Assembly: GCA_017439405.1 (NCBI GenBank)
Contig: JAFSJF010000089.1
Span: forward strand, 1-50,296
DNA length: 50,296 nt
Direction of reading: 5' to 3'
Source of the DNA: Bacteroidales bacterium
Lineage (GTDB): Bacteria > Bacteroidota > Bacteroidia > Bacteroidales > F082
Shown here: positions 2,749-25,190 of the stretch, piece by piece
Layout of the letters: every line of letters begins with the position of its first letter
How positions within the stretch are numbered: position 1 is the stretch's first letter
Made by a program: the position numbers and the translations under genes
Notes under the pieces: generated by a model
Databases searched by the model: none
Told to the model about the DNA's origin: nothing
What the model saw: only the letters and a program-made list of their open reading frames with translations

Positions 2749-3945
2749 ATGGAAACACTATTCAGGAAACACCGGATTTTGATTTCGCAAGTGAGCATGG
2801 ACATCGTTCGCGAGATCATGCAGCACATTGCTTGGGAGAAGCAATTGGTGGCCCTCAGAGGCTCGCGAGGCGTGGGCAAGACGACCCTCATGCGGCAGTA
2901 CATCAAGCAAACCTATGGCGTCAATGCGGGCGAGGCACTCTATTGCGTACTCGACAGCCTTTATTTCACCAACCACTCTTTGCTCGACCTCGCCGAACAG
3001 TTCCACATGCGAGGCGGCAAGCACCTTTTCTTGGACGAGGTACACAAATACCCCACTTGGAGCAAAGAAATCAAGGAAATCATCGACCTTCATCCCGACC
3101 TCAAAATCACCTTCAGCGGATCGTCGCTGCTCCAAATCCTCAATGCCGACGCCGACCTCTCGCGCCGTGTACTCAGCTACATGATGGAAGGGCTTTCCTT
3201 CCGCGAATACCTCCATTTCTATAAAGGCATCCAACTGCCCAAACATAGCTTAGAGGAGATTCTGACCAACCCCGATGCCGTTTGCGACGAGGTGAACCGC
3301 GTTTGTCACCCTCAACCCTTGTTTGAGCAATACCTTCGTGCAGGCTACTATCCTTTCTACGACGGCAACGAGACCGAATACTACAGCCGCATCGAAAATG
3401 TCGTCAACTTCATCGTCGATCAGGAACTGACGCAGTTTTGCGGCGTGGAGGTCGCCAACACACGGAAAATCAAGGTATTGTTGCTTTTTTTGGCAGAAAA
3501 TGTGCCCTACGAGGTGAACATTGCCAAACTCTCGACCTATCTCGAGCTGAACAAGCAGACGGTGTTGGGCTACCTCAGCGGCCTGCAACGCGCCGAGATG
3601 CTCCACCTGCTGTATTCCGACAACAAGTCGGTGACGCGCTTGCAGAAACCCGACAAAATCTACCTTCACAATCCCAATTTGTTTTACGCCCTCGGCCAAC
3701 AAAACCAGATTGGCACCATCAGGGAGTGTTTTGTCGTCAATCAACTTGCCGTAAGCCATAGTGTTGAATATGGAAAACAGCAAGGCGACTTCCTCGTTGA
3801 CAGACACATCACTTTCGAAGTGGGCGGGCAAGACAAGACCTTCGACCAAATCGCCGACATGCCCGATTCGTATGTCTTGGCCGACATGATGGAATACCCC
3901 ATCGGGAAGAAACTGCCTTTGTGGATTGTGGGGATGATGTATTGA
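2749..3945 (+). CDS. AAA+ ATPase of the AAA_14/DUF4143 type (ATPase 1)
   Basis: A 398-residue solitary P-loop ATPase. The N-terminal AAA domain has Walker A GSRGVGKTT at residues 38-46, Walker B LFLDE with D96/E97, and a sensor-like FSGSSLL. A helical linker leads to a winged-helix-like segment (about 245-285; VNIAKLSTYLELNKQTV) and a C-terminal DUF4143-like part. In nuclease-like relatives that part holds a D...ExK site; here it reads GDFLVD...FEVGG, so the lysine is missing and nuclease activity is unlikely. Function of the family is not established. The gene is alone, with a private 33-bp-period palindrome array over its promoter, which suggests autoregulation through the winged helix. Two other ATPases of this broad class lie at 26431 and 42942, unlike it in sequence. 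Confidence 0.85.
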   Translation: METLFRKHRILISQVSMDIVREIMQHIAWEKQLVALRGSRGVGKTTLMRQYIKQTYGVNAGEALYCVLDSLYFTNHSLLDLAEQFHMRGGKHLFLDEVHKYPTWSKEIKEIIDLHPDLKITFSGSSLLQILNADADLSRRVLSYMMEGLSFREYLHFYKGIQLPKHSLEEILTNPDAVCDEVNRVCHPQPLFEQYLRAGYYPFYDGNETEYYSRIENVVNFIVDQELTQFCGVEVANTRKIKVLLLFLAENVPYEVNIAKLSTYLELNKQTVLGYLSGLQRAEMLHLLYSDNKSVTRLQKPDKIYLHNPNLFYALGQQNQIGTIRECFVVNQLAVSHSVEYGKQQGDFLVDRHITFEVGGQDKTFDQIADMPDSYVLADMMEYPIGKKLPLWIVGMMY

Positions 3946-14490: not shown

Positions 14491-15816
14491 TTATTCCTTA
14501 CCTTTCCAATACTTTTGAATCAAAGCTTCCTTCAAACCTGTCTCGGCCTTGGTGAAATACTTGCCAAACAGCTCCCAAGCGGTGTCGAGCATCTCCGTAA
14601 TCGGGATGTTGACGTCGATGGCAAGCAGTCGGGTGGCGTATTCCTTGGCGTAGTCGAGGCAGCGCAGGTCGTAGTCGCTCAGGTCGAAGCCGTTCTCCAA
14701 CTTGGTCTTGGCGTTGGCGGCGTCGGCGTAGAGGCGCACTGAGGTGTTCATCACGGCGCTGTGGTCCTCGCGGGTCTTCTTGTTCTGCACATGTTGTTTC
14801 AGTCGCGACAGCGATCGGAACGGGTCGACGATTACCTTGCCCGAGTCGGGGTCGGCACGAAGGAACAGCTGGCCCTCGGTGATGTAACCCGTGTTGTCGG
14901 GGATGGCGTGGGTGATGTCACCATCGTTCAAAGTCGTCACGGCAATGATAGTGATGGAACCGCCATCGGGCAGCTGCACGGCCTTTTCGTAGATCTTCGC
15001 CAAGTCGGAATAAAGCGAGCCGGGCATGGAGTCCTTCGACGGGATTTGGTCCATACGGTTGCTCACGATACTCAAGGCATCGGCATACAGCGTCATGTCG
15101 GTGAGCAGCACCAAAACCTTCTCGTTCTTGTCGACGGCAAAGTATTCAGCCGCAGTCAGGGCCATGTCGGGAATCAGCAGACGCTCGACGGGCGGCTGGT
15201 CGGTGGTGTTCACGAAGCTGATGATCTTGTGCAAGGCACCTGCGCTCTCAAACTCGTTCTTGAAGAAAAGGTAGTCGTCGTTGGTCAGACCCATGCCGCC
15301 GAGGATGATCTTGTCGACATCGGCGCGGAGGGCCACCATGCTCATCACCTGGTTATAAGGCTGGTCGGGGTCGGCGAAGAACGGGATCTTCTGGCCGGAG
15401 ACCAAAGTGTTGTTCAAGTCGATGCCGGCGATGCCCGTCGGGATCAGTTCGGAAGGCATACGACGTTTGTACGGGTTCACGGAAGGGCCGCCGATTTGGC
15501 GTTTCTCGCCTTCCACAGCCGGACCGCCGTCGATAGGCTCGCCGTAAGCGTTGAAGAAACGGCCTGCCAGGTCGTCGCTCACGTTCAAGGTGGGCGGTTC
15601 GCCAAAGAAGGTCACTTCGGCATTGGTCGGGATGTCTTCCGTGCCGCCAAACACCTGAAGGGTGACGGCGTTGTCCTTGATTTTCACCACCTGTGCCAAA
15701 CGGCCTGCCACGAGGGCGAGTTCGTCGTTGGCCACGCCTTGCGCCTCAAGGGTCACGGTGGCCTTGGTGATGGCGCTCAGCTTGGTATAGATGCGTTGAA
15801 AGGCTTTCTCACTCAT
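14491..15816 (-). CDS. atpB: V-type ATPase subunit B
   Basis: Subunit B is the non-catalytic partner of A in the A3B3 head of the V-type ATPase. The 441-residue protein lacks a canonical P-loop, as expected, and carries family segments such as GRFFNAYGEPIDGGP, NPYKRRMPSELIPTGIAGID and LSRLKQHVQNKKTREDH. Its ATG overlaps the end of atpA by eight bases, so A and B are translationally coupled and made in equal amounts. Downstream the operon is interrupted by the lipoprotein gene. Confidence 0.96.
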   Translation of the reverse strand: MSEKAFQRIYTKLSAITKATVTLEAQGVANDELALVAGRLAQVVKIKDNAVTLQVFGGTEDIPTNAEVTFFGEPPTLNVSDDLAGRFFNAYGEPIDGGPAVEGEKRQIGGPSVNPYKRRMPSELIPTGIAGIDLNNTLVSGQKIPFFADPDQPYNQVMSMVALRADVDKIILGGMGLTNDDYLFFKNEFESAGALHKIISFVNTTDQPPVERLLIPDMALTAAEYFAVDKNEKVLVLLTDMTLYADALSIVSNRMDQIPSKDSMPGSLYSDLAKIYEKAVQLPDGGSITIIAVTTLNDGDITHAIPDNTGYITEGQLFLRADPDSGKVIVDPFRSLSRLKQHVQNKKTREDHSAVMNTSVRLYADAANAKTKLENGFDLSDYDLRCLDYAKEYATRLLAIDVNIPITEMLDTAWELFGKYFTKAETGLKEALIQKYWKGKE

Positions 15817-17557
15817 GTTTCAGTTCCTCCTTTAACTGTCCAAGATATTTTTCAAAGTTTTCCGACTTGTATTCCGAGTAGTTCATCTGACGGCAGATGT
15901 TGATCAAGCCCTTGAAGTAAGTCGTACATTCCTCAAAGTTATCGAACTTGAAGCTGCGGTCACAGATGCCGAGCACCAAGTCAAGCATGAACTTCTGGCG
16001 CTCCAATGGTGTTGAGCCGTCGATTTCGTCGAAAGCGTCTTGCTGAAGAATCACAAAGTCAATGAGTTCCGATTTCCAATATTGCTCGTGGTACGACATC
16101 GGCACGCCGTCGTCGCCCAAGATGTTGATTTGCTCGTAGGCATCCTTACCCTTACGGATGATGTATTTCGTCTTCGTCACCTTATCGACCCAACCCTTTT
16201 CAATCTTGTTGTCAAGATATTCAATGATTTCGGGGTATTCGAGGTATTTCGAGTAGGAATCCACGGGATCGACGGCGGGATAGCGCTTCTTGTCGGCGCG
16301 GTTTTGCGAAAGGCCGTAGAAGCAACGGGCGGCTTTCTTGGTGGATTCGGTGACAGGTTCCTTCAGGTTACCGCCGGCAGGCGACACCGTTCCGATGAAG
16401 GTGATGGAACCGGATTGTCCGTTGTTCAGTTTCACATAACCCGCACGAGCGTAGAAGTTGGAGATGATGGCCGAGAGATCGACGGGGAAGCCGTCTTGAC
16501 CAGGCAGCTCCTCCAGACGGTTACTCATCTCACGCAAAGCCTGAGCCCAACGTGAGGTGGAGTCGGCGAGCAGCAAGACCTTCATGCCCATGGCGCGGTA
16601 GTATTCGCCGAGCGTCATGGCAGTATAGACCGAAGCCTCACGAGCGGCAACCGGCATGTTCGACGTGTTGCAGATGATGATGGTACGCTCCATCAGCGAG
16701 CGACCCGTGTGTTTGTCTTTCAGTTCGGGGAACTCGGTGAAGATTTCCACGACCTCGTTGGCGCGCTCACCGCAAGCCGTCATGATGATGATGTCGGCAT
16801 CGGCTTGCTCGGCCAAGGCGTGTTGCAGCACGGTCTTGCCGCATCCGAAAGGTCCGGGGATGAAGCCCGTGCCGCCCTCGGCGATGGGATTGAGCGTGTC
16901 AATACAGCGCACACCCGTCTCCATCACCTTGAAGGGACGCGGTTTCTCCACATAGCCACCCACGGCCACCTTGACGGGCCATTTCTGCATCATCATCACC
17001 TTCACCTCCTCGCCTTCCGCGTTGGTCAGCGTGGCAATGGTGTCGGTGATTTTGTACTGGCCAGCGGCAGCCATGTTTTTCACGGTGTAAGTGCCTTCAA
17101 AATTGAACGGCACCATGATTTTGTGCGACAGCCAGCCTTCCTTGACTTCGCCCAACCAGTCGGCGGCGATGACTTGGTCGTCGGCCTTGGCAATGGGCGT
17201 AAAGTCCCATAACTTATTCTCATCCAACGGCTTGGTGTACTCGCCACGTTTCAGGAAGACGCCTTCCATCGTGGCTAAGTTGTTTTGCAGGCCGTCGAAG
17301 TTGCTCGATAGCAAACCAGGACCCAAGGTCACTTCAAGCATGTAGCCTTGGAATTCCACTGGATCACCGATCTGGAGGCCACGGGTGCTCTCAAACACCT
17401 GCACGGAGGCTTTGTTCCCGTTCACCTTGATGACCTCTGCCATCAGCTCGACGCCGTCGAGGTCGATGAAGCAGATCTCATTCTGTGCCACAGGGCCGTC
17501 CACCTCCACAGTGACGAGGTTTGCAATGATTCCTGTAACTTTTCCTGTTGTTTTCAT
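15809..17557 (-). CDS. atpA: V-type ATPase catalytic subunit A
   Basis: This is the catalytic, ATP-hydrolysing (or ATP-making) subunit of the V-type complex. The start is placed at 17557, giving MKTTGKVTGIIANLVTVEVD, the usual family N-terminus; a further 10 codons upstream are open but unlike the family. The 582-residue protein has Walker A GPFGCGKTVLQ near residue 230, the non-homologous insert of V-type A subunits before it, and the DSTSRWAQALREMSNRLEE segment. Upstream (to 20728) lies the block of inserted genes that separates it from the E and DUF2764 genes. Confidence 0.96.
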   Translation of the reverse strand: MKTTGKVTGIIANLVTVEVDGPVAQNEICFIDLDGVELMAEVIKVNGNKASVQVFESTRGLQIGDPVEFQGYMLEVTLGPGLLSSNFDGLQNNLATMEGVFLKRGEYTKPLDENKLWDFTPIAKADDQVIAADWLGEVKEGWLSHKIMVPFNFEGTYTVKNMAAAGQYKITDTIATLTNAEGEEVKVMMMQKWPVKVAVGGYVEKPRPFKVMETGVRCIDTLNPIAEGGTGFIPGPFGCGKTVLQHALAEQADADIIIMTACGERANEVVEIFTEFPELKDKHTGRSLMERTIIICNTSNMPVAAREASVYTAMTLGEYYRAMGMKVLLLADSTSRWAQALREMSNRLEELPGQDGFPVDLSAIISNFYARAGYVKLNNGQSGSITFIGTVSPAGGNLKEPVTESTKKAARCFYGLSQNRADKKRYPAVDPVDSYSKYLEYPEIIEYLDNKIEKGWVDKVTKTKYIIRKGKDAYEQINILGDDGVPMSYHEQYWKSELIDFVILQQDAFDEIDGSTPLERQKFMLDLVLGICDRSFKFDNFEECTTYFKGLINICRQMNYSEYKSENFEKYLGQLKEELKHE

Positions 17558-17602
17558 TATTGTTATATTTCTGATTTCAAATTTCAAGATTCTATTTTGT
17601 AA

Positions 17603-17804: not shown

Positions 17805-19118
17805 CTATTCTTTCAATAGCTTTTGAAGACAAATGCTTTTCCCGCATTTTTTTATGCCAAGATAGTATATTCCAGAAGGAAAATCACCAATTTCAATCTT
17901 TTGAATTTCATCCGTCATTTTCTGTTGGAGTAGCACTTGTCCTGAAAAGTTATATATTATTATAGTGCTGTTTTTTTCTCCAGAAACAAAAAGCGTGTTT
18001 GATACTGGATTTGGGAACACAAAGACACTGTCTTTTTCCTCAGCAAGTCCTTCGTATGTCTTCCCCAACTTATAGACTCCTCCGTTCCCCGAAGTAAGGT
18101 AATAAACACTTTCATAACTACTGATGCCAGCAAATAGTACGCTGCCAGGGCAAACCAATGCGTCCAATTCAATCCATGTATTGCCTCCGTCTTGTGTTTG
18201 ATAAGTGATAATTCCTGTCGGGTAGTAACCTTGTATTCCTTCCAATAAATAAACAATGATTCCGTGTTGTGGGTCAGAAAAGCTTATACTGGTTATTATA
18301 GGCCACAAATCCATTGGTAGGTTTTCAGTTTGCAGCCATTGATAGGTCGCAAATCCGTCATCGGTTCTAATCTCATTGTATTCGTAGGAGAGCTCATTTT
18401 CATCATAACCAAAAGCACCGAAAATGGAAACATGGTCTTTGTCATGGAACAAGGCCTTTTCTATGCCTTCCACCTCTGAATCAAACGACAAGAACTCTTC
18501 CCATGAAGAACCATAGTCTGTGGTTTTTGCAATATGAGTGCCTTGAAAATCGCCAGCCATTCCCCAAACGATATACCCGACATTTCCCTCGAAATATAAA
18601 TCTTGAGTCGAATTCAGCCATTCTATTTCCAATTGGGAAAAGCTATTACCTCCGTCTGTGCTTTTCATTAATTGGTCGCTGGCCACATACAAAGTGTCCG
18701 AATCGACCAAAAACAGGTCGCAGGATGAAGGAGAAAGGTAATTGTATGCATTGAAGGGACAGCCCATATCCATCCATGTTTCTCCTCCGTCAATAGTTTT
18801 GAGCAGTTTTCCTTTATAGTTATTATCGCTTCCAAAGGAAAATCCAATATTTGAATCAAAGAATTTGATTTTATACCATTGGTAGCCAGATTGTCTGTAT
18901 TTCTCTTGCCAACTGTTTCCTCCATCCTCGGTCTTCAATATCAGGCCGTTTTGTCCGCAGACGAACACCGTGTTGGTATCGATGCAACAGAGTCCATAAA
19001 GGTCTTCAGTAACTCCCGTGTGGAGTTCCTCCCATTGCTGCGCCTTCGCCACGCCCCCCACTGCCAACAGCAGAAGGAGGAAAAACGCGAATTTCGTTGT
19101 ATATAACAGTCTTTTCAT
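17805..19118 (-). CDS. Secreted Ycf48/BNR-like repeat protein with type IX secretion tail
   Basis: A 437-residue exported protein: signal peptide ending VAKAQ, then beta-propeller-like repeats with the recurring pattern ILKTEDGGNSW, LLKTIDGGETW, LMKSTDGGNSF, IAKTTDYGSSW, TYQTQDGGNTW. This pattern is typical of the Ycf48/BNR photosystem-assembly-like superfamily. The last about 75 residues (VFVFPNPVSNTLFV to the basic end) form a type A sorting domain recognised by the type IX secretion system, so the protein is probably carried to the cell surface. It has its own promoter at 19151-19158 although it sits inside the V-ATPase gene cluster. The gene is richer in A+T than its neighbours. Confidence 0.85.
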   Translation of the reverse strand: MKRLLYTTKFAFFLLLLLAVGGVAKAQQWEELHTGVTEDLYGLCCIDTNTVFVCGQNGLILKTEDGGNSWQEKYRQSGYQWYKIKFFDSNIGFSFGSDNNYKGKLLKTIDGGETWMDMGCPFNAYNYLSPSSCDLFLVDSDTLYVASDQLMKSTDGGNSFSQLEIEWLNSTQDLYFEGNVGYIVWGMAGDFQGTHIAKTTDYGSSWEEFLSFDSEVEGIEKALFHDKDHVSIFGAFGYDENELSYEYNEIRTDDGFATYQWLQTENLPMDLWPIITSISFSDPQHGIIVYLLEGIQGYYPTGIITYQTQDGGNTWIELDALVCPGSVLFAGISSYESVYYLTSGNGGVYKLGKTYEGLAEEKDSVFVFPNPVSNTLFVSGEKNSTIIIYNFSGQVLLQQKMTDEIQKIEIGDFPSGIYYLGIKKCGKSICLQKLLKE

Positions 19119-19192: not shown

Positions 19193-19921
19193 TTAAATGA
19201 CCCAATTGATTATATTTGATTTTGTCAACAATTTCACGGCAACTCCCACCAAAATCGCAATCCCGAAACTCAACAAAGTGCCGACCAAAACGTATTCCGA
19301 CTTCACCGTGTCCGTTTCCCTAAACCTCAGCAACGACTTGGCGGCCAAAAGGAAGCCGATGGCTTCATACTGTCCCAACATGACGAACACAAGTGTCAAA
19401 AGACGCTCCATGTTGCCGATCACACGACCCGCATTGGGCAGACTTTGGTTCTCTTCGCCATTGGTGGGAACCGTGATTCTTGCATCCTTGAAAACGTTCT
19501 TAATGAAGAAGTTGGCAGGACGCAGACAAAAAACGAAGGCTACAATCCACAACAGCACATTCATTTCAGGCAACCAAGTTGGCAACGCAATCGCATTTAC
19601 CTTATTATATAGCATCACTGCCGCGACGATGACCGCCACATGAAGCAACTGATCGATGAAAAACGCGCCTTTCTTGTCGCTGAAAATGGACTTAAGCCCA
19701 TCTATGACAAGATGCAACACGGCAACCAGCAACGCCGCCCACCAAAAGCCCCAACTCATCGAAAGCAACCAAGCGCAGGCAAAAGTAATCGCCGAATGGA
19801 CATACAAATGCCTCGACTTGAACGCATTGTCGGCCTTGCTCTTGCACGATTTCTCCGTCTGCAAGTAGAAGTCGCTGACGAGGTGCGCCAAGAGTTGCAA
19901 TATGAGGAGTTTGCACATCAT
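19193..19921 (-). CDS. DUF3307 integral membrane protein
   Basis: A 242-residue membrane protein with about six hydrophobic spans. The N-terminal domain (LLILQLLAHLVSDFYLQTEK, then SRHLYVHSAITF, LVIDGLKSIFSDK and FFIDQLLHV) matches the DUF3307 family, with conserved histidines and aspartates near the membrane surface. Function is unknown. The start overlaps the stop of the SatD-like gene (ATGATG), so the pair is translationally coupled. By analogy with cyclase-plus-membrane-effector pairs it could be the output of the SatD-like protein, but this is speculation. Confidence 0.8.
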   Translation of the reverse strand: MMCKLLILQLLAHLVSDFYLQTEKSCKSKADNAFKSRHLYVHSAITFACAWLLSMSWGFWWAALLVAVLHLVIDGLKSIFSDKKGAFFIDQLLHVAVIVAAVMLYNKVNAIALPTWLPEMNVLLWIVAFVFCLRPANFFIKNVFKDARITVPTNGEENQSLPNAGRVIGNMERLLTLVFVMLGQYEAIGFLLAAKSLLRFRETDTVKSEYVLVGTLLSFGIAILVGVAVKLLTKSNIINWVI

Positions 19922-20592
19922 TTTTCGAAGTTCAGTTTTTCAAAGTAGTTTACGGCGGATTCGATGGCGTTCCAACCGATTGCGTTACTATGCTGATTGA
20001 CAACCGATTGTACTACACCTAATTTCTCTGCAATTTCCACCTCACTCATTCCCAACAATTTATAATAAAGAACTTCACACTGTTTTGACGTTGCTTCCTT
20101 AAACAACATATCAAGCAATCCTAACATCACATCCATTTGTTCGGAGAACAAAGAGTCTTTGCTGGCAAAAAACATAGTTCGCTTAATCGATAGACCTTCC
20201 TTTGTACCCTTCTCCAAAGCCCTACCCGAATAATAAATGGCCTCACCATCCAATACATCACGATTCTTATCTGCCACGCGCATTTCACCAATTCCAATGG
20301 CTATCCTGATTCCAAATTTTTTGAACAGACTTTGTTTCGCCTCCATGTTACTCTCCACGAAAGTCTTTTTCACTAATGCTTTCAGCAACAAAGCTACCCT
20401 AAGGGCTTCATGCGGGTTGCTCAAAAAAATCTCCACAGAATCGCCTTTAAAAAGACGACCCCAATCCGTATTTTGCGATTTTACCGACAGCTCATCCAAG
20501 AACTGCCGTATCACAGATTGAAGATGCATCAAGTCAAACACACTCAACGCAGTGGAAGAAACTATGTCCGCTGAAATCGTAGCCTTAACCAT
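19918..20592 (-). CDS. SatD-like protein: nucleotide-cyclase-like fold plus C-terminal HTH
   Basis: A 224-residue soluble protein. Residues 1-150 follow the class III nucleotidyl cyclase pattern. They show SADIVSST with D9 where the first metal aspartate lies, LFKGDSVEIF with D51 as the second, a helix LSNPHEALRVALLLKAL, then FGIRIAIGIGEM and DGEAIYYSGRALEKG, matching the GIHxG and GxAVNxAARL regions of cyclases. The C-terminus (about 172-220, LLGMSEVEIAEKLGVVQSVV) is a sigma-factor-like helix-turn-helix. The family appears to be the SatD group. It is coupled to a DUF3307 membrane protein, and its promoter region holds a 29-bp tandem palindrome array. It could be a nucleotide-sensing regulator or a true cyclase; catalysis is not shown. 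Confidence 0.75.
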   Translation of the reverse strand: MVKATISADIVSSTALSVFDLMHLQSVIRQFLDELSVKSQNTDWGRLFKGDSVEIFLSNPHEALRVALLLKALVKKTFVESNMEAKQSLFKKFGIRIAIGIGEMRVADKNRDVLDGEAIYYSGRALEKGTKEGLSIKRTMFFASKDSLFSEQMDVMLGLLDMLFKEATSKQCEVLYYKLLGMSEVEIAEKLGVVQSVVNQHSNAIGWNAIESAVNYFEKLNFEK

Positions 20593-20605
20593 TATATCCT
20601 TTTTT

Positions 20606-20731
20606 GGTTATATCCGATATTTATAACCTTTTTTAGTCATATTTATTGTTTAATTATCGGTATTTTTACCGATATTTACCAATTATCGGTATTTTTACCG
20701 ATATTTACCAATTATCGGCTTTTTTACCTAT
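20606..20731 (-). promoter_or_regulatory. Operator array: palindrome plus three tandem 29-bp units
   Basis: Units start at 20652, 20681 and 20710. The first two are identical over 29 bases and contain the palindrome tatcggtatttttaccgata; the third is diverged and runs into the DUF2764 stop codon. Nearer the SatD-like start lies a separate palindrome with arms ggttata and tataacc (20606-20628). The layout suggests cooperative binding by a dimeric regulator, plausibly the HTH of the SatD-like protein. Confidence 0.75.
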
Positions 20732-21336
20732 ACCTTCCCTCCTCCAACACTCAAATCCAAATCCGCATTCGTCCCACGAATCTCCTTCACCAACTTGCGG
20801 AACATCTCCTCGCCCTTCGCTGTGTCGAGTTCGGCCCAGCGTTGAACGGTCTTGGCCTTGACGAGGAATGCGAGGATGGCGTTCATGTTGAAATAGTCCA
20901 TGCGGGCGATGTCGCTGGCCTTCTCCCACTTCAGCTCATCCATCTTCTGCTCGCGTTTCACGAAGTCGGCATCCTCAAGGATTTCCTTGATTTGGTGTTC
21001 CTCCTCGAAGTCGGCTTCAGGGAAATCGACGACAAAAGCCTTGCCGTCCTTGCCGAGGCGTTTGGCCAAATAATTCACCTTCATGTTGCGCAGGCGACCG
21101 TCGAAATCGAAGTATTCGCGGATGAAGCGGTTCTTGCTCTCGGCAGCTTTGGCGTAGAAATCGGCGCCAAGGGTCTGCTCGTCGAAGCCCTCCTCCATCA
21201 GTTCGACCAGCTGCTGGTCTTTCTCGGAGAGCAACTCCATGACGGACTCCTTGAGCGCGGCATAGTCGAAGCCTGTGGTCTCGAATCCCGAGGTCAGTTC
21301 CGGCAAGCCGGCCACGATATAGACGTAGTTATCCAT
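20728..21336 (-). CDS. DUF2764 protein of V-type ATPase operons
   Basis: A 202-residue protein starting MDNYVYIVAGLPEL, the hallmark of the DUF2764 family found beside V-ATPase genes in Bacteroidetes and Chlamydiae. From its fixed place between E and A in those operons it probably takes the role of subunit C, the V-shaped linker between rotor and central stalk; this is inference. It is mostly helical, with an acidic middle. Its ATG overlaps the stop of atpE. Downstream, in place of atpA, comes the SatD-like operator array. Confidence 0.88.
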   Translation of the reverse strand: MDNYVYIVAGLPELTSGFETTGFDYAALKESVMELLSEKDQQLVELMEEGFDEQTLGADFYAKAAESKNRFIREYFDFDGRLRNMKVNYLAKRLGKDGKAFVVDFPEADFEEEHQIKEILEDADFVKREQKMDELKWEKASDIARMDYFNMNAILAFLVKAKTVQRWAELDTAKGEEMFRKLVKEIRGTNADLDLSVGGGKV

Positions 21337-22640: not shown

Positions 22641-25190
22641 ATGAAGCGACTGTTACTTATCTCATTGATTATTACATATTTATCAAACCCAACCTTGTCT
22701 CAGGAACACCGTCGTTACGCCTTGGTTTGGAGCGAGGAGTTCAACGAGGGCAAACTGGATCCCGACGTTTGGACGAAAATCTGGCGCAGCACGGCCGACT
22801 GGGCCATCCACATGAGCTCGCATGACTCTTTGTTTGCCTTCGAGGACGGCTCCCTCGTGCTACGCGGCATGGCCAACGATTTCCTGCCCAACGACACCGC
22901 TCCTTTCCTCACCGGAGGCGTTTGGAGCATCAACAAGAAATCTTTCGGTTTCGGGCGCATCGACGTCAGGGCGAAGTTCGACGTGGCGCAAGGTTTCTGG
23001 CCCGCCATCTGGATGCTGCCGCAGACGACAAAATCGCTGCAATGGCCCTATGGCGGCGAAATCGACATCATGGAGCATTTCCGAAGCAATCCCTTTGTCA
23101 ACCACACAGTCCACAGCAACTACACCTTCCACCTCCGCAAAATCTACAATCCTCCGCAGGCGGCCTATCCGAAATACGACGAAGGCGAATACAACACCTA
23201 CGGCATGGAACGCTTCCAAGACAGCCTCGTGTTTTTCGTCAACGGGAAGCGGACGTTCAACTACCCGCGCTTCCGCGACGGCGTGGACGGACAGTTCCCC
23301 TTCAGCAACCACGACTATTACCTCATTCTTGATGCGCAATTGGGCCGCGACCGCTCGCCTTACATCGACACGGCGAAACTGCCCGTGGCGCTTCGGGTTG
23401 ACTATGTGCGCTATTTCGAGCTTGACACCAAAACCGACATCATCCCCGAACCAAAAGATTTCCAGCAACTTAGCAAAAGAAAACACAGACTTCGCAAGGT
23501 GGAAACAGACCCGAAAAACACATTCGCCAACCCTGACGAATACCACATTGTCGTCAAGCGAGGCAAGGCTGTCGTTTCAGGCAATGCTGTTTGGGCGCAA
23601 AGCACTCTGGATCAACTCATTGACGAAAATGGCATGGTGGCCGACTTGGAAATCCACGACTGGGCAGCCTACCCTTTCCGTGGCTTCATGCACGACACGG
23701 GACGCAACTATCAGCCTGTCAGCCTGTTGAAAGAAACCATCGACCTAATGGCGTTCTACAAGCTGAACTACTTCCATTGGCATCTCACCGACTACCCCGC
23801 CTGGCGCATCGAGTGCAAGGTCTATCCGCAACTCAATGATCCCCAATACCAAAGGACTGGGCGCGACGAGGGTAAGTTCTACACCTACGACGAAATCCGC
23901 GAGGTGATTGCCTACGCCCACGAGCGCGGCATCACCGTGGTGCCTGAAATCGACATGCCGGGGCATTCCACCTATTTCAAGGACGCTTTCGGCTTCACGA
24001 TGGACTCCGAAGATGGCCGCAAAGTACTCGAAAAATGCCTCGACGAGTTCTTCAACGAAATCCCGAAAAGCGACTGTCCCTATTTCCATATCGGCTCCGA
24101 CGAGGTATGGGTCAATGACCCGAAAGGCTTCACGCAATGGATTGAAAACCTGATGGATAAATACGACCGACAGCCCATCGCTTGGGACCCAGGACTGCCC
24201 GCCTCCGACAAGGTCATACGGCAAATCTGGAACGAAGCGGCAGGCTCCAACGCAGCGGCTTCCGAAAAGGACGGGAAATACCTGGATTCTTTCGTCGGCT
24301 ATCTGAACTACTACGACCCGATGCTGTTCACGAGCCGCCTTTTCCTGCATACCGCCGCTGCGCAAGCCTTGCCTGACACCACCAAGGCCTTGGGCGGCAC
24401 ACTCTGCCTCTGGAACGACGTGCGCGTGGACGAAAAAGAGAACATCGCGCTACACAACGGCATGATTAACGGCATGATGGCCTTCGCCGAGCGCTTCTGG
24501 AACGGCGGCAACGCAGGCGGGGTCGCAAACGAGAACCTTCCCACCGGCCCGCTCACCGAGGCCGGATCGCGTTTGGCCAACTTCGAGGAAAAGATAGCCC
24601 TCCACCGCGACCGTTTCCACAAGGACAAAATGCGCTGGGTGGCCAACTCGCAAATGGAATGGAAGGTGAAAATCGATGAAAACGAACCTTTTGCAGCCTT
24701 CGGTGGAGCAGTTGATTTGGACGCTTTCTGCCAGCTTCACGACCTCCAGGTTGGCGACACCGCACTTGCAACAGCACAAACCATCATCATCGCCGAGCAA
24801 GAGATGGACATCGAGGCCTGGATTGGTTTCTGCACTCCTGCCCGTTCCAACCGCAACGGCTACGGCATTGGCGCTCAAGGCCATTGGGAAGGTGGCGGGC
24901 AATGCTTCGTGAACGGCACGGAAATCCTGCCCCCTACCGACTGGGACGAACCCGAAAAATACGACTATCCCTTCAACACTTGGGGCAAGCCGGAGGAAGA
25001 ACTGCCCTTCACCGACGAACAACTCTATTGGATGCGACAACCTGCCAAGATTCATTTGGTTAAGGGAGAAAACCGAATAGAGATAAAAACACCGAAGACC
25101 TACAGAGGCCTTCGGTGGAGTTTCGCTTTCATCCCTGTCGAGACACAATCTGACGGCTCGGTAAGGGAGGTGGAAGGGATTGGGGGCTGA
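22641..25190 (+). CDS. GH16-GH20 fusion glycoside hydrolase
   Basis: An 849-residue exported enzyme with two catalytic domains. A signal peptide (ends about LSQ21) is followed by a GH16 beta-jelly-roll domain (about 28-275). That domain holds the catalytic EIDIME motif, nucleophile E140 and acid/base E145. A linker leads to a GH20 domain (about 345-640) with NYFHWHLTDYPAWRIE, PEIDMPGHS and the D487-E488 pair in HIGSDEV, the polarising aspartate and acid of beta-N-acetylhexosaminidases. The C-terminal 200 residues are unassigned, probably beta-rich. GH16 enzymes cut internal beta-galactose or glucan linkages; GH20 removes terminal GlcNAc or GalNAc. Together they suggest stepwise cutting of poly-LacNAc, keratan-sulfate-like or mucin O-glycans. 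The following gene is a LytTR regulator; no SusCD pair is adjacent. Confidence 0.9.
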   Translation: MKRLLLISLIITYLSNPTLSQEHRRYALVWSEEFNEGKLDPDVWTKIWRSTADWAIHMSSHDSLFAFEDGSLVLRGMANDFLPNDTAPFLTGGVWSINKKSFGFGRIDVRAKFDVAQGFWPAIWMLPQTTKSLQWPYGGEIDIMEHFRSNPFVNHTVHSNYTFHLRKIYNPPQAAYPKYDEGEYNTYGMERFQDSLVFFVNGKRTFNYPRFRDGVDGQFPFSNHDYYLILDAQLGRDRSPYIDTAKLPVALRVDYVRYFELDTKTDIIPEPKDFQQLSKRKHRLRKVETDPKNTFANPDEYHIVVKRGKAVVSGNAVWAQSTLDQLIDENGMVADLEIHDWAAYPFRGFMHDTGRNYQPVSLLKETIDLMAFYKLNYFHWHLTDYPAWRIECKVYPQLNDPQYQRTGRDEGKFYTYDEIREVIAYAHERGITVVPEIDMPGHSTYFKDAFGFTMDSEDGRKVLEKCLDEFFNEIPKSDCPYFHIGSDEVWVNDPKGFTQWIENLMDKYDRQPIAWDPGLPASDKVIRQIWNEAAGSNAAASEKDGKYLDSFVGYLNYYDPMLFTSRLFLHTAAAQALPDTTKALGGTLCLWNDVRVDEKENIALHNGMINGMMAFAERFWNGGNAGGVANENLPTGPLTEAGSRLANFEEKIALHRDRFHKDKMRWVANSQMEWKVKIDENEPFAAFGGAVDLDAFCQLHDLQVGDTALATAQTIIIAEQEMDIEAWIGFCTPARSNRNGYGIGAQGHWEGGGQCFVNGTEILPPTDWDEPEKYDYPFNTWGKPEEELPFTDEQLYWMRQPAKIHLVKGENRIEIKTPKTYRGLRWSFAFIPVETQSDGSVREVEGIGG

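Follow-up and report, generated by a model that had tools for sequence, protein, structure and literature searches.

The cassette analysed here resembles several described systems in part. The Pfam family SatD (PF16264) takes its name from a protein encoded in the sat operon of Streptococcus mutans, which is reportedly linked to acid tolerance, as in the title of a 2001 paper by Kremer. Pycsar combines a cyclase, PycC, with a membrane partner, PycTM. Autoregulated HTH–effector systems include AbiE-type operons, the controller proteins of R-M systems, and the repressor–operator immunity regions of phages, and the swapping of a regulator and its operator as a block is familiar from phage immunity regions. 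Autoregulation of AbiE-type operons is reported in PMC3985639. The DUF2652 proteins are an earlier example of a cyclase-like family in Bacteroidetes that is uncharacterised; according to PMC4886424, they are single-domain proteins with one exception and have substrate and transition-state residues.

The window, i.e., the whole 50,296-nt stretch of Bacteroidales DNA, contains a satD-like gene (19918–20592, minus strand) encoding a 224-residue protein with a cyclase-like N-terminal part, including D9 and D51, and a C-terminal HTH. The next gene (19193–19921, minus strand) encodes a 242-residue DUF3307 membrane protein with several hydrophobic stretches and conserved His and Asp residues. According to the ORF coordinates, the satD-like stop and the DUF3307 start share four bases, so the overlap claimed in the original prediction is real. 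The cassette sits in a V-ATPase operon, between the DUF2764 gene of that operon (20728–21336, minus strand), which flanks the cassette on the 5′ side and lies outside it, and the V-ATPase subunit A gene (15809–17587, minus strand) on the 3′ side. One extra gene (17805–19118, minus strand) separates DUF3307 from subunit A; its product is a secreted, BNR/Ycf48-like protein that has a Por secretion tail. A V-ATPase function for the cassette is rejected, because the V-ATPase context was observed in the window and its near kin only. Beyond the DUF2764 gene, the window encodes an 849-residue protein (22641–25190, plus strand) in which, by eye, two glycoside hydrolase domains appear to be fused.

The pairing with DUF3307 holds well beyond the window. 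SatD-like relatives are found by protein search in 44 of the 295 genomes of the order, and DUF3307 lies directly 3′ of the satD-like gene in all 35 first loci and follows it in 44 of the 46 loci of a wider set (two of the 44 are short). The order search gives 47 match places, six of them outside the 46-locus set; three of the six (G095, G013, and G030) are seen with DUF3307, and the others are the second place in G007 and the places in G130 and G089. At the phylum level, 77 of 296 genomes match, and a satD-like gene is directly 5′ of DUF3307 in each of the 30 loci fetched. The same order is seen in 13 of 13 plasmid loci read from 20 plasmid records, the hosts including haloarchaea, an actinobacterium, a fusobacterium, and both alpha- and gammaproteobacteria. 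Within the genus, 24 of 99 genomes carry a SatD-like gene, one per genome, and the other 23 proteins are 27–77% identical to that of the window. The pair forms a cassette with a patchy distribution among bacteria and haloarchaea. Shadow ORFs apart, no other gene occurs in more than 5 of the 46 neighbourhoods, some of which are short stretches; a neighbour cluster in 27 of the 46 loci runs antisense to DUF3307 and V-ATPase genes and was therefore interpreted as shadow ORFs. One same-genus SatD-like gene (L238:869–1516) has no DUF3307 in the fetched stretch and is followed by a transporter-like gene, as judged by eye. The original prediction knew of no described role for the pair, and no description of it is found in the open-access literature searched; one phage paper gives DUF3307 as a best match and one Fusobacterium paper uses a SatD name. 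The cassette is real, widespread, and, as far as the literature was searched, undescribed.

Just upstream of the satD-like gene, three 29-bp tandem units with palindromes and a second palindrome near the start codon had been claimed, and both are confirmed. The units at 20652–20680 and 20681–20709 are identical, and the third, at 20710–20738, is 79% identical, so the array runs slightly beyond 20731, the end originally quoted. The two identical units hold exact candidate operator sites, TATCGG-N8-CCGATA, at 20655–20674 and 20684–20703, spaced by 29 bp. An imperfect TATCGG copy lies 29 bp further on (20713–20732) and overlaps the stop of the DUF2764 gene. Nearer the start codon is a pair of candidate sites of another type, also 29 bp apart, at 20622–20641 (TATGAC/TATAAC) and 20593–20612 (TATAAC/TATATC), the latter abutting the satD-like start codon. 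In all, there are five 20-bp palindromes, three of the TATCGG type and two of the TATAAC type, spaced by 29 bp within the sets and by 33 bp between them. Another tandem palindrome array, with a GGTTAGTCGACTAACC core and a period of about 33, is present at 2623–2710 of the window, just 5′ of a gene that looks ATPase-like by eye (2749–3945, plus strand); this array and gene are possibly another self-regulated cassette.

Palindromes repeated at least twice are found upstream of 20 of the 46 satD-like genes versus 4 of the 221 remaining genes at these loci, and one of those four is a divergent neighbour that shares a satD array; the rate in shuffles is 0.35% of 2,300. The most enriched palindrome width is 20 bp (80 versus 7.5 expected). 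Pairs of palindromes at 29 bp number 46, in 26 of the 46 loci, versus 1.1 expected, and pairs at 28 bp number 27, in 10 loci, versus 1.2 expected. The arrays mostly have the form TATxyz-N8-z′y′x′ATA at a 28- or 29-bp pitch, and xyz varies. A chain score exceeds the 99% shuffle null in 37 of 46 order loci, 30 of 30 phylum loci, and 7 of 13 plasmid loci, the last including haloarchaeal and Vibrio plasmids, which leaves 9 order loci and 6 plasmid loci that fail the array test at this level. At the 99.9% null, 32 order, 30 phylum, and 2 plasmid loci pass. The loci yield 27 consensus half-sites, a few of which are register variants. In the repeating form TATxyz-N8-z′y′x′ATA-N8/9, the half-sites alternate every 14–15 bp, an arrangement in which either register could be open to a dimer. 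The Bacteroidota-type promoter element has the consensus TAnnTTTG; with this consensus, the element lies no more than 110 bp from the start in 45 of 76 loci, versus 6.9 in base-shuffled sequence.

The half-sites covary with the HTH of the adjacent gene, whose recognition helix corresponds approximately to residues 194–205. The comparison uses 59 of the 74 loci with a half-site consensus (those in the TAT or AATAAG register), or 53 after removal of those more than 90% alike. In the 53 loci, the mutual information of half-site position 6 with residue 200 and with residue 196 has z values of 11.7 and 10.4, and that of half-site position 5 with residue 197 has a z value of 9.5. Residues 200, 196, and 197, all in the recognition helix, outrank every other column, the best column outside the HTH reaching 6.3. 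Since all columns share one phylogeny, relatedness is controlled for mainly by this comparison among columns; permutations by themselves would not suffice. At residue 200, Q goes with G6 (22/22), R or K with C6 (9/11), G with T6 (5/5), and E with G6 (6/8); at residue 197, A or G goes with A5 (18/20), S, T, or V with G5 (22/28), and N with T5 (4/5). In 26 disjoint close pairs, residue 200 with position 6 comes first of 609 tests, at an uncorrected p of 7.8e-4 that fails correction and with residue 217, outside the helix, close behind. Because the half-site bases covary with recognition-helix residues, the SatD-like protein probably binds its own array, and regulation by this array is strongly suggested by the sequences.

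Candidate sites are essentially confined to the satD locus. In the window's own genome (3.5 Mb), the array geometry occurs at this locus alone (3 matches, versus 1 in a reversed control). The exact TATCGG palindrome is present twice, both times at the locus; with at most one mismatch it is present at five places, three at the locus and two elsewhere (7 in the control). Likewise, in ten genomes with TATAAG-type arrays, 21 of 28 exact sites are at the satD locus and 7 are elsewhere, versus 26 in the control. Sites elsewhere are therefore at or below the control level. The idea of a dedicated operator is thus supported by the pitch, the array score, the helix covariation, and the confinement of the sites.

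Ten cassette loci at the V-ATPase site (the window and L228–L236) were compared for exchange. Of 19 same-genus loci, 17 lack a cassette between the DUF2764 gene and atpA; in L227, one of the 17, about 0.85 kb of other sequence intervenes. Between the window and L232, the identities of DUF2764, SatD, and DUF3307 are 94, 68, and 94%, and between L228 and L229 they are 96, 68, and 98%. Between L230 and L232 the pattern is reversed, SatD being 99% identical between flanks of 88% (DUF2764) and 77% (DUF3307), which refutes fast evolution in place of exchange. The nucleotide identity profiles show abrupt steps close to the proximal operator and shortly after the beginning of DUF3307. Related species seem to swap the proximal operator and satD as a block at this site. 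In all ten alleles, one operator set matches the allele's own helix according to the code: V197/Q200 occurs with TATCGG (window and L229), A197/Q200 with TATAAG or TATCAG (L228 and L230–L233), and T197/R200 with TATAGC (L234–L236). Several of the arrays are mosaics of two operator types. In the window and L234–L236, the sites matching the allele's own helix are the distal ones, and in L230–L233 they are the proximal ones; the code does not assign the proximal pair of the window (20593–20641) to the window's own recognition helix. The non-fitting type may have been left behind by an earlier allele.

We favour, with a probability of about 0.62, the explanation that the cassette has spread horizontally as a self-contained control unit, in which the SatD-like protein, a nucleotide-sensing autoregulator acting on its own array, controls the DUF3307 effector. 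The SatD-like protein would probably be a dimer, whose class III cyclase-like domain probably binds a metal–nucleotide, and so senses nucleotide, without making a cyclic nucleotide. The HTH would contact a row of evenly spaced half-sites, with 20-bp palindromes every 28–29 bp, over its own promoter, and such an even row could allow neighbouring dimers to bind together. Occupancy of the array would set the level of the SatD-like protein itself and of DUF3307, the effector, presumably by repression rather than activation, and the trigger may be infection or stress. The pairing, the array geometry, the HTH–operator covariation, the near-confinement of the sites, and the block exchange are established computationally. 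Points that weigh against this explanation are the second operator type in many arrays at this site, the order and plasmid loci whose chain scores fail, the close-pair link that does not withstand correction, and the basic residue beside GD51 described below. Like the autoregulated HTH–effector operons, the cassette has a regulator that, as read from sequence, would act on palindromes over its own operon, and the specificity of both changes together; it differs from them in the cyclase-like sensor domain, the fixed 28–29-bp multi-site array, and the presence of DUF3307.

The effector gene is assigned to DUF3307 (PF11750) with a Pfam score of 84.4 against a gathering cut-off of 23 bits. Conserved His and Asp residues (H12, D16, H41, H69, D73, D89, and H93 in alignment numbering), together with E171, R172, K194, R198, and E208, are consistent with a membrane enzyme or transporter, and sequence searches of Pfam, NCBIfam, PADLOC, and the PDB give no activity for DUF3307. 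A YdjM/DUF457 hydrolase is rejected: the H-x3-D appearance alone is common to both, the hhalign probability is 6%, and the one match to YdjM among 31 DUF3307 members (2e-4) does not amount to homology with YdjM-type membrane hydrolases. The apparently catalytic nature of the conserved His, Asp, Glu, Lys, and Arg residues suggests a tentative alternative, held at well under even odds, in which DUF3307 processes or transports a metabolite or lipid at the membrane under the control of a nucleotide-responsive SatD-like regulator, and the module serves homeostasis with no phage or plasmid conflict. DUF3307 being the sole widely common neighbour, and the rarity of the cassette in phage and viral collections, agree with this alternative. 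The patchy presence in the order, phylum, and genus genomes (44/295, 77/296, and 24/99), the exchange of operator and regulator, and the two small plasmids that have the pair as main cargo argue against it.

These two plasmids, of 3.77 and 4.42 kb, carry the pair with little else. E. coli is rejected as a model, since none of 5,426 E. coli genomes matches the pair of plasmid pEC34A at the nucleotide level. On a Sphingomonas plasmid (L115:4352–7217), the SatD-like/DUF3307 pair is directly beside PycC (E 4e-183), PycTM, and an E2-associated protein, and a genome-contig copy, L068, adjoins a type I R-M system, which accounts for 2 of 10 picked neighbours, both at L068. A second ten neighbours include three Pycsar or associated proteins, from the Sphingomonas plasmid, and one weak DRT match at L068. 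For a defence scan, 28 loci supplied 158 neighbour proteins, of which 135 (24 loci) were scanned alongside 135 control proteins from 25 of 28 control stretches, the other three having no usable gene. Cassette neighbours match 229 PADLOC families at 1e-10 versus 42 for the controls; these are family tallies with heavy overlap, and the top families come mainly from two proteins, the methylase and specificity components of type I R-M. The enrichment of defence genes near the cassette is therefore suggestive at most. Proximity to defence islands, proposed as a check on the original prediction, is seen at some loci only, such as L068 and the Sphingomonas plasmid. A phage origin is rejected, as tblastn of both window proteins gives no match among 50,697 phage records and the DUF3307 profile finds 2 loci in IMG/VR.

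The plasmid and R-M/Pycsar contexts fit a role in conflict or addiction, and a defence role is possible. A broader version, speculative to the same degree as the homeostasis module, would make the cassette a mobile system, resembling immunity or exclusion, that bacteria and archaea share and that falls into regulator–operator specificity groups. The autoregulator, on a row of half-sites spaced by 14 bp, would keep a membrane effector in check, and phage or plasmid conflict would drive the operator–regulator swaps while the effector is kept. Somewhat more doubtful is a toxin–antitoxin-like addiction or abortive-infection operon, in which derepressed DUF3307 would be toxic to the membrane and a SatD-like autorepressor would hold it off. 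The overlapping genes with the regulator first, the palindromes over the own operon, and the small plasmids that carry mainly this pair are what speaks for such an operon, but DUF3307 matches no known toxin in Pfam, NCBIfam, or PADLOC, and its conservation is enzyme-like, unlike that of a pore-like small protein.

For the SatD-like protein itself, the claimed class III cyclase pattern with D9 and D51 is borne out, and the claimed C-terminal HTH is supported. The best PDB match of a profile of 34 relatives is the class III cyclase 3mr7 (E 0.0016, profile positions 4–105), other cyclases (Ma1120) being matched at E 0.65 or worse, and hhalign of 89 relatives against 15 Bacteroidota cyclases (those of 30 fetched loci that passed a motif filter) gives a probability of 85% over residues 2–104. 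In the alignment of the 89 relatives, position 9 is Asp in 86 of 88 and Glu in two, and position 51 is Asp in 88 of 88, and both metal-binding Asp residues align with the cyclase motifs over the N-terminal 100 or so residues. Two divergent SatD-like proteins (L072:7963–8634 and L073:7948–8613) have Glu in place of the first metal Asp; these loci lack DUF3307, and their array scores are not above the 99% null. The likeness to class III cyclases does not extend to the transition-state pair: with the places set by visual comparison with the G-x2-I-x4-R motif, because the hhalign alignment covers residues 2–104 only, the Asn place is Y, V, I, H, or R in the 89 relatives, and Arg (Arg124) is present in just 46 of 89, with Glu in 25. 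Beside GD51, 80 of 89 relatives have R or K; in the gapped hhalign alignment this residue, K49 (R in 59 and K in 21 of 89), falls on the substrate-Lys column, which is hydrophobic if aligned ungapped from GD51. The basic residue may thus occupy the substrate-Lys place of cyclases, leaving catalysis possible. Together, the sequences support common descent with class III cyclases and a metal–nucleotide site and speak against catalysis. Since the metal Asp residues are kept and the transition-state pair is not, a nucleotide-sensing autoregulator appears likelier than a cyclase. The protein also differs from the DUF2652 proteins, for which a mostly single-domain build and substrate and transition-state residues are reported.

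As for the SatD label, 13 of the 34 relatives in the alignment match PF16264 at E ≤ 1, the strongest with E 4.4e-14, so homology to accepted members is found through these relatives, and haloarchaeal plasmid records label the gene upstream of DUF3307 "SatD family". The window protein itself has no Pfam SatD match at E ≤ 1 and does not reach the PF16264 gathering cut-off, its Pfam matches being sub-threshold HTH matches and one unrelated weak match. PF16264 likewise gives no matches in the whole own genome, a search in which 14 controls were also silent. The SatD name for the window protein is therefore indirect.

An active cyclase with a membrane effector, along the Pycsar-like lines of the original suggestion, is not supported and appears unlikely; in this version, infection would cause the SatD-like protein to make a cyclic nucleotide, and DUF3307 would be opened or activated by it. 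The cassette does share with Pycsar a cyclase-like protein with a membrane partner, and the kept metal Asp residues, the basic residue on the substrate-Lys column, and the plasmid copy adjoining a Pycsar locus favour this version. However, the families are different: PADLOC finds no PycC or PycTM/PycTIR homologue in the window proteins, the SatD-like protein giving one unrelated weak CARF match over the HTH (E 0.0043) and DUF3307 no match. In addition, the transition-state pair is missing or variable at the places set by motif, and Pfam finds no cyclic-nucleotide sensor domain in DUF3307. Finally, that another factor binds the array, which would then serve as a promoter or as an element of chromosome architecture, is very improbable, although the two operator types together in several arrays might point to it, because the bases covary with the SatD-like protein's own recognition helix, the array geometry is nowhere else in the own genome, and the proximal sites move with satD.

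The analysis joins SatD and DUF3307 into one widespread unit, a joint description of which was not found in the literature searched. It makes a recognition-helix-to-operator code readable and open to gel-shift testing, and it makes the exchange of regulator and operator as a block between related species visible at one V-ATPase operon. Whatever DUF3307 does, the array offers a handle on the role of the effector.
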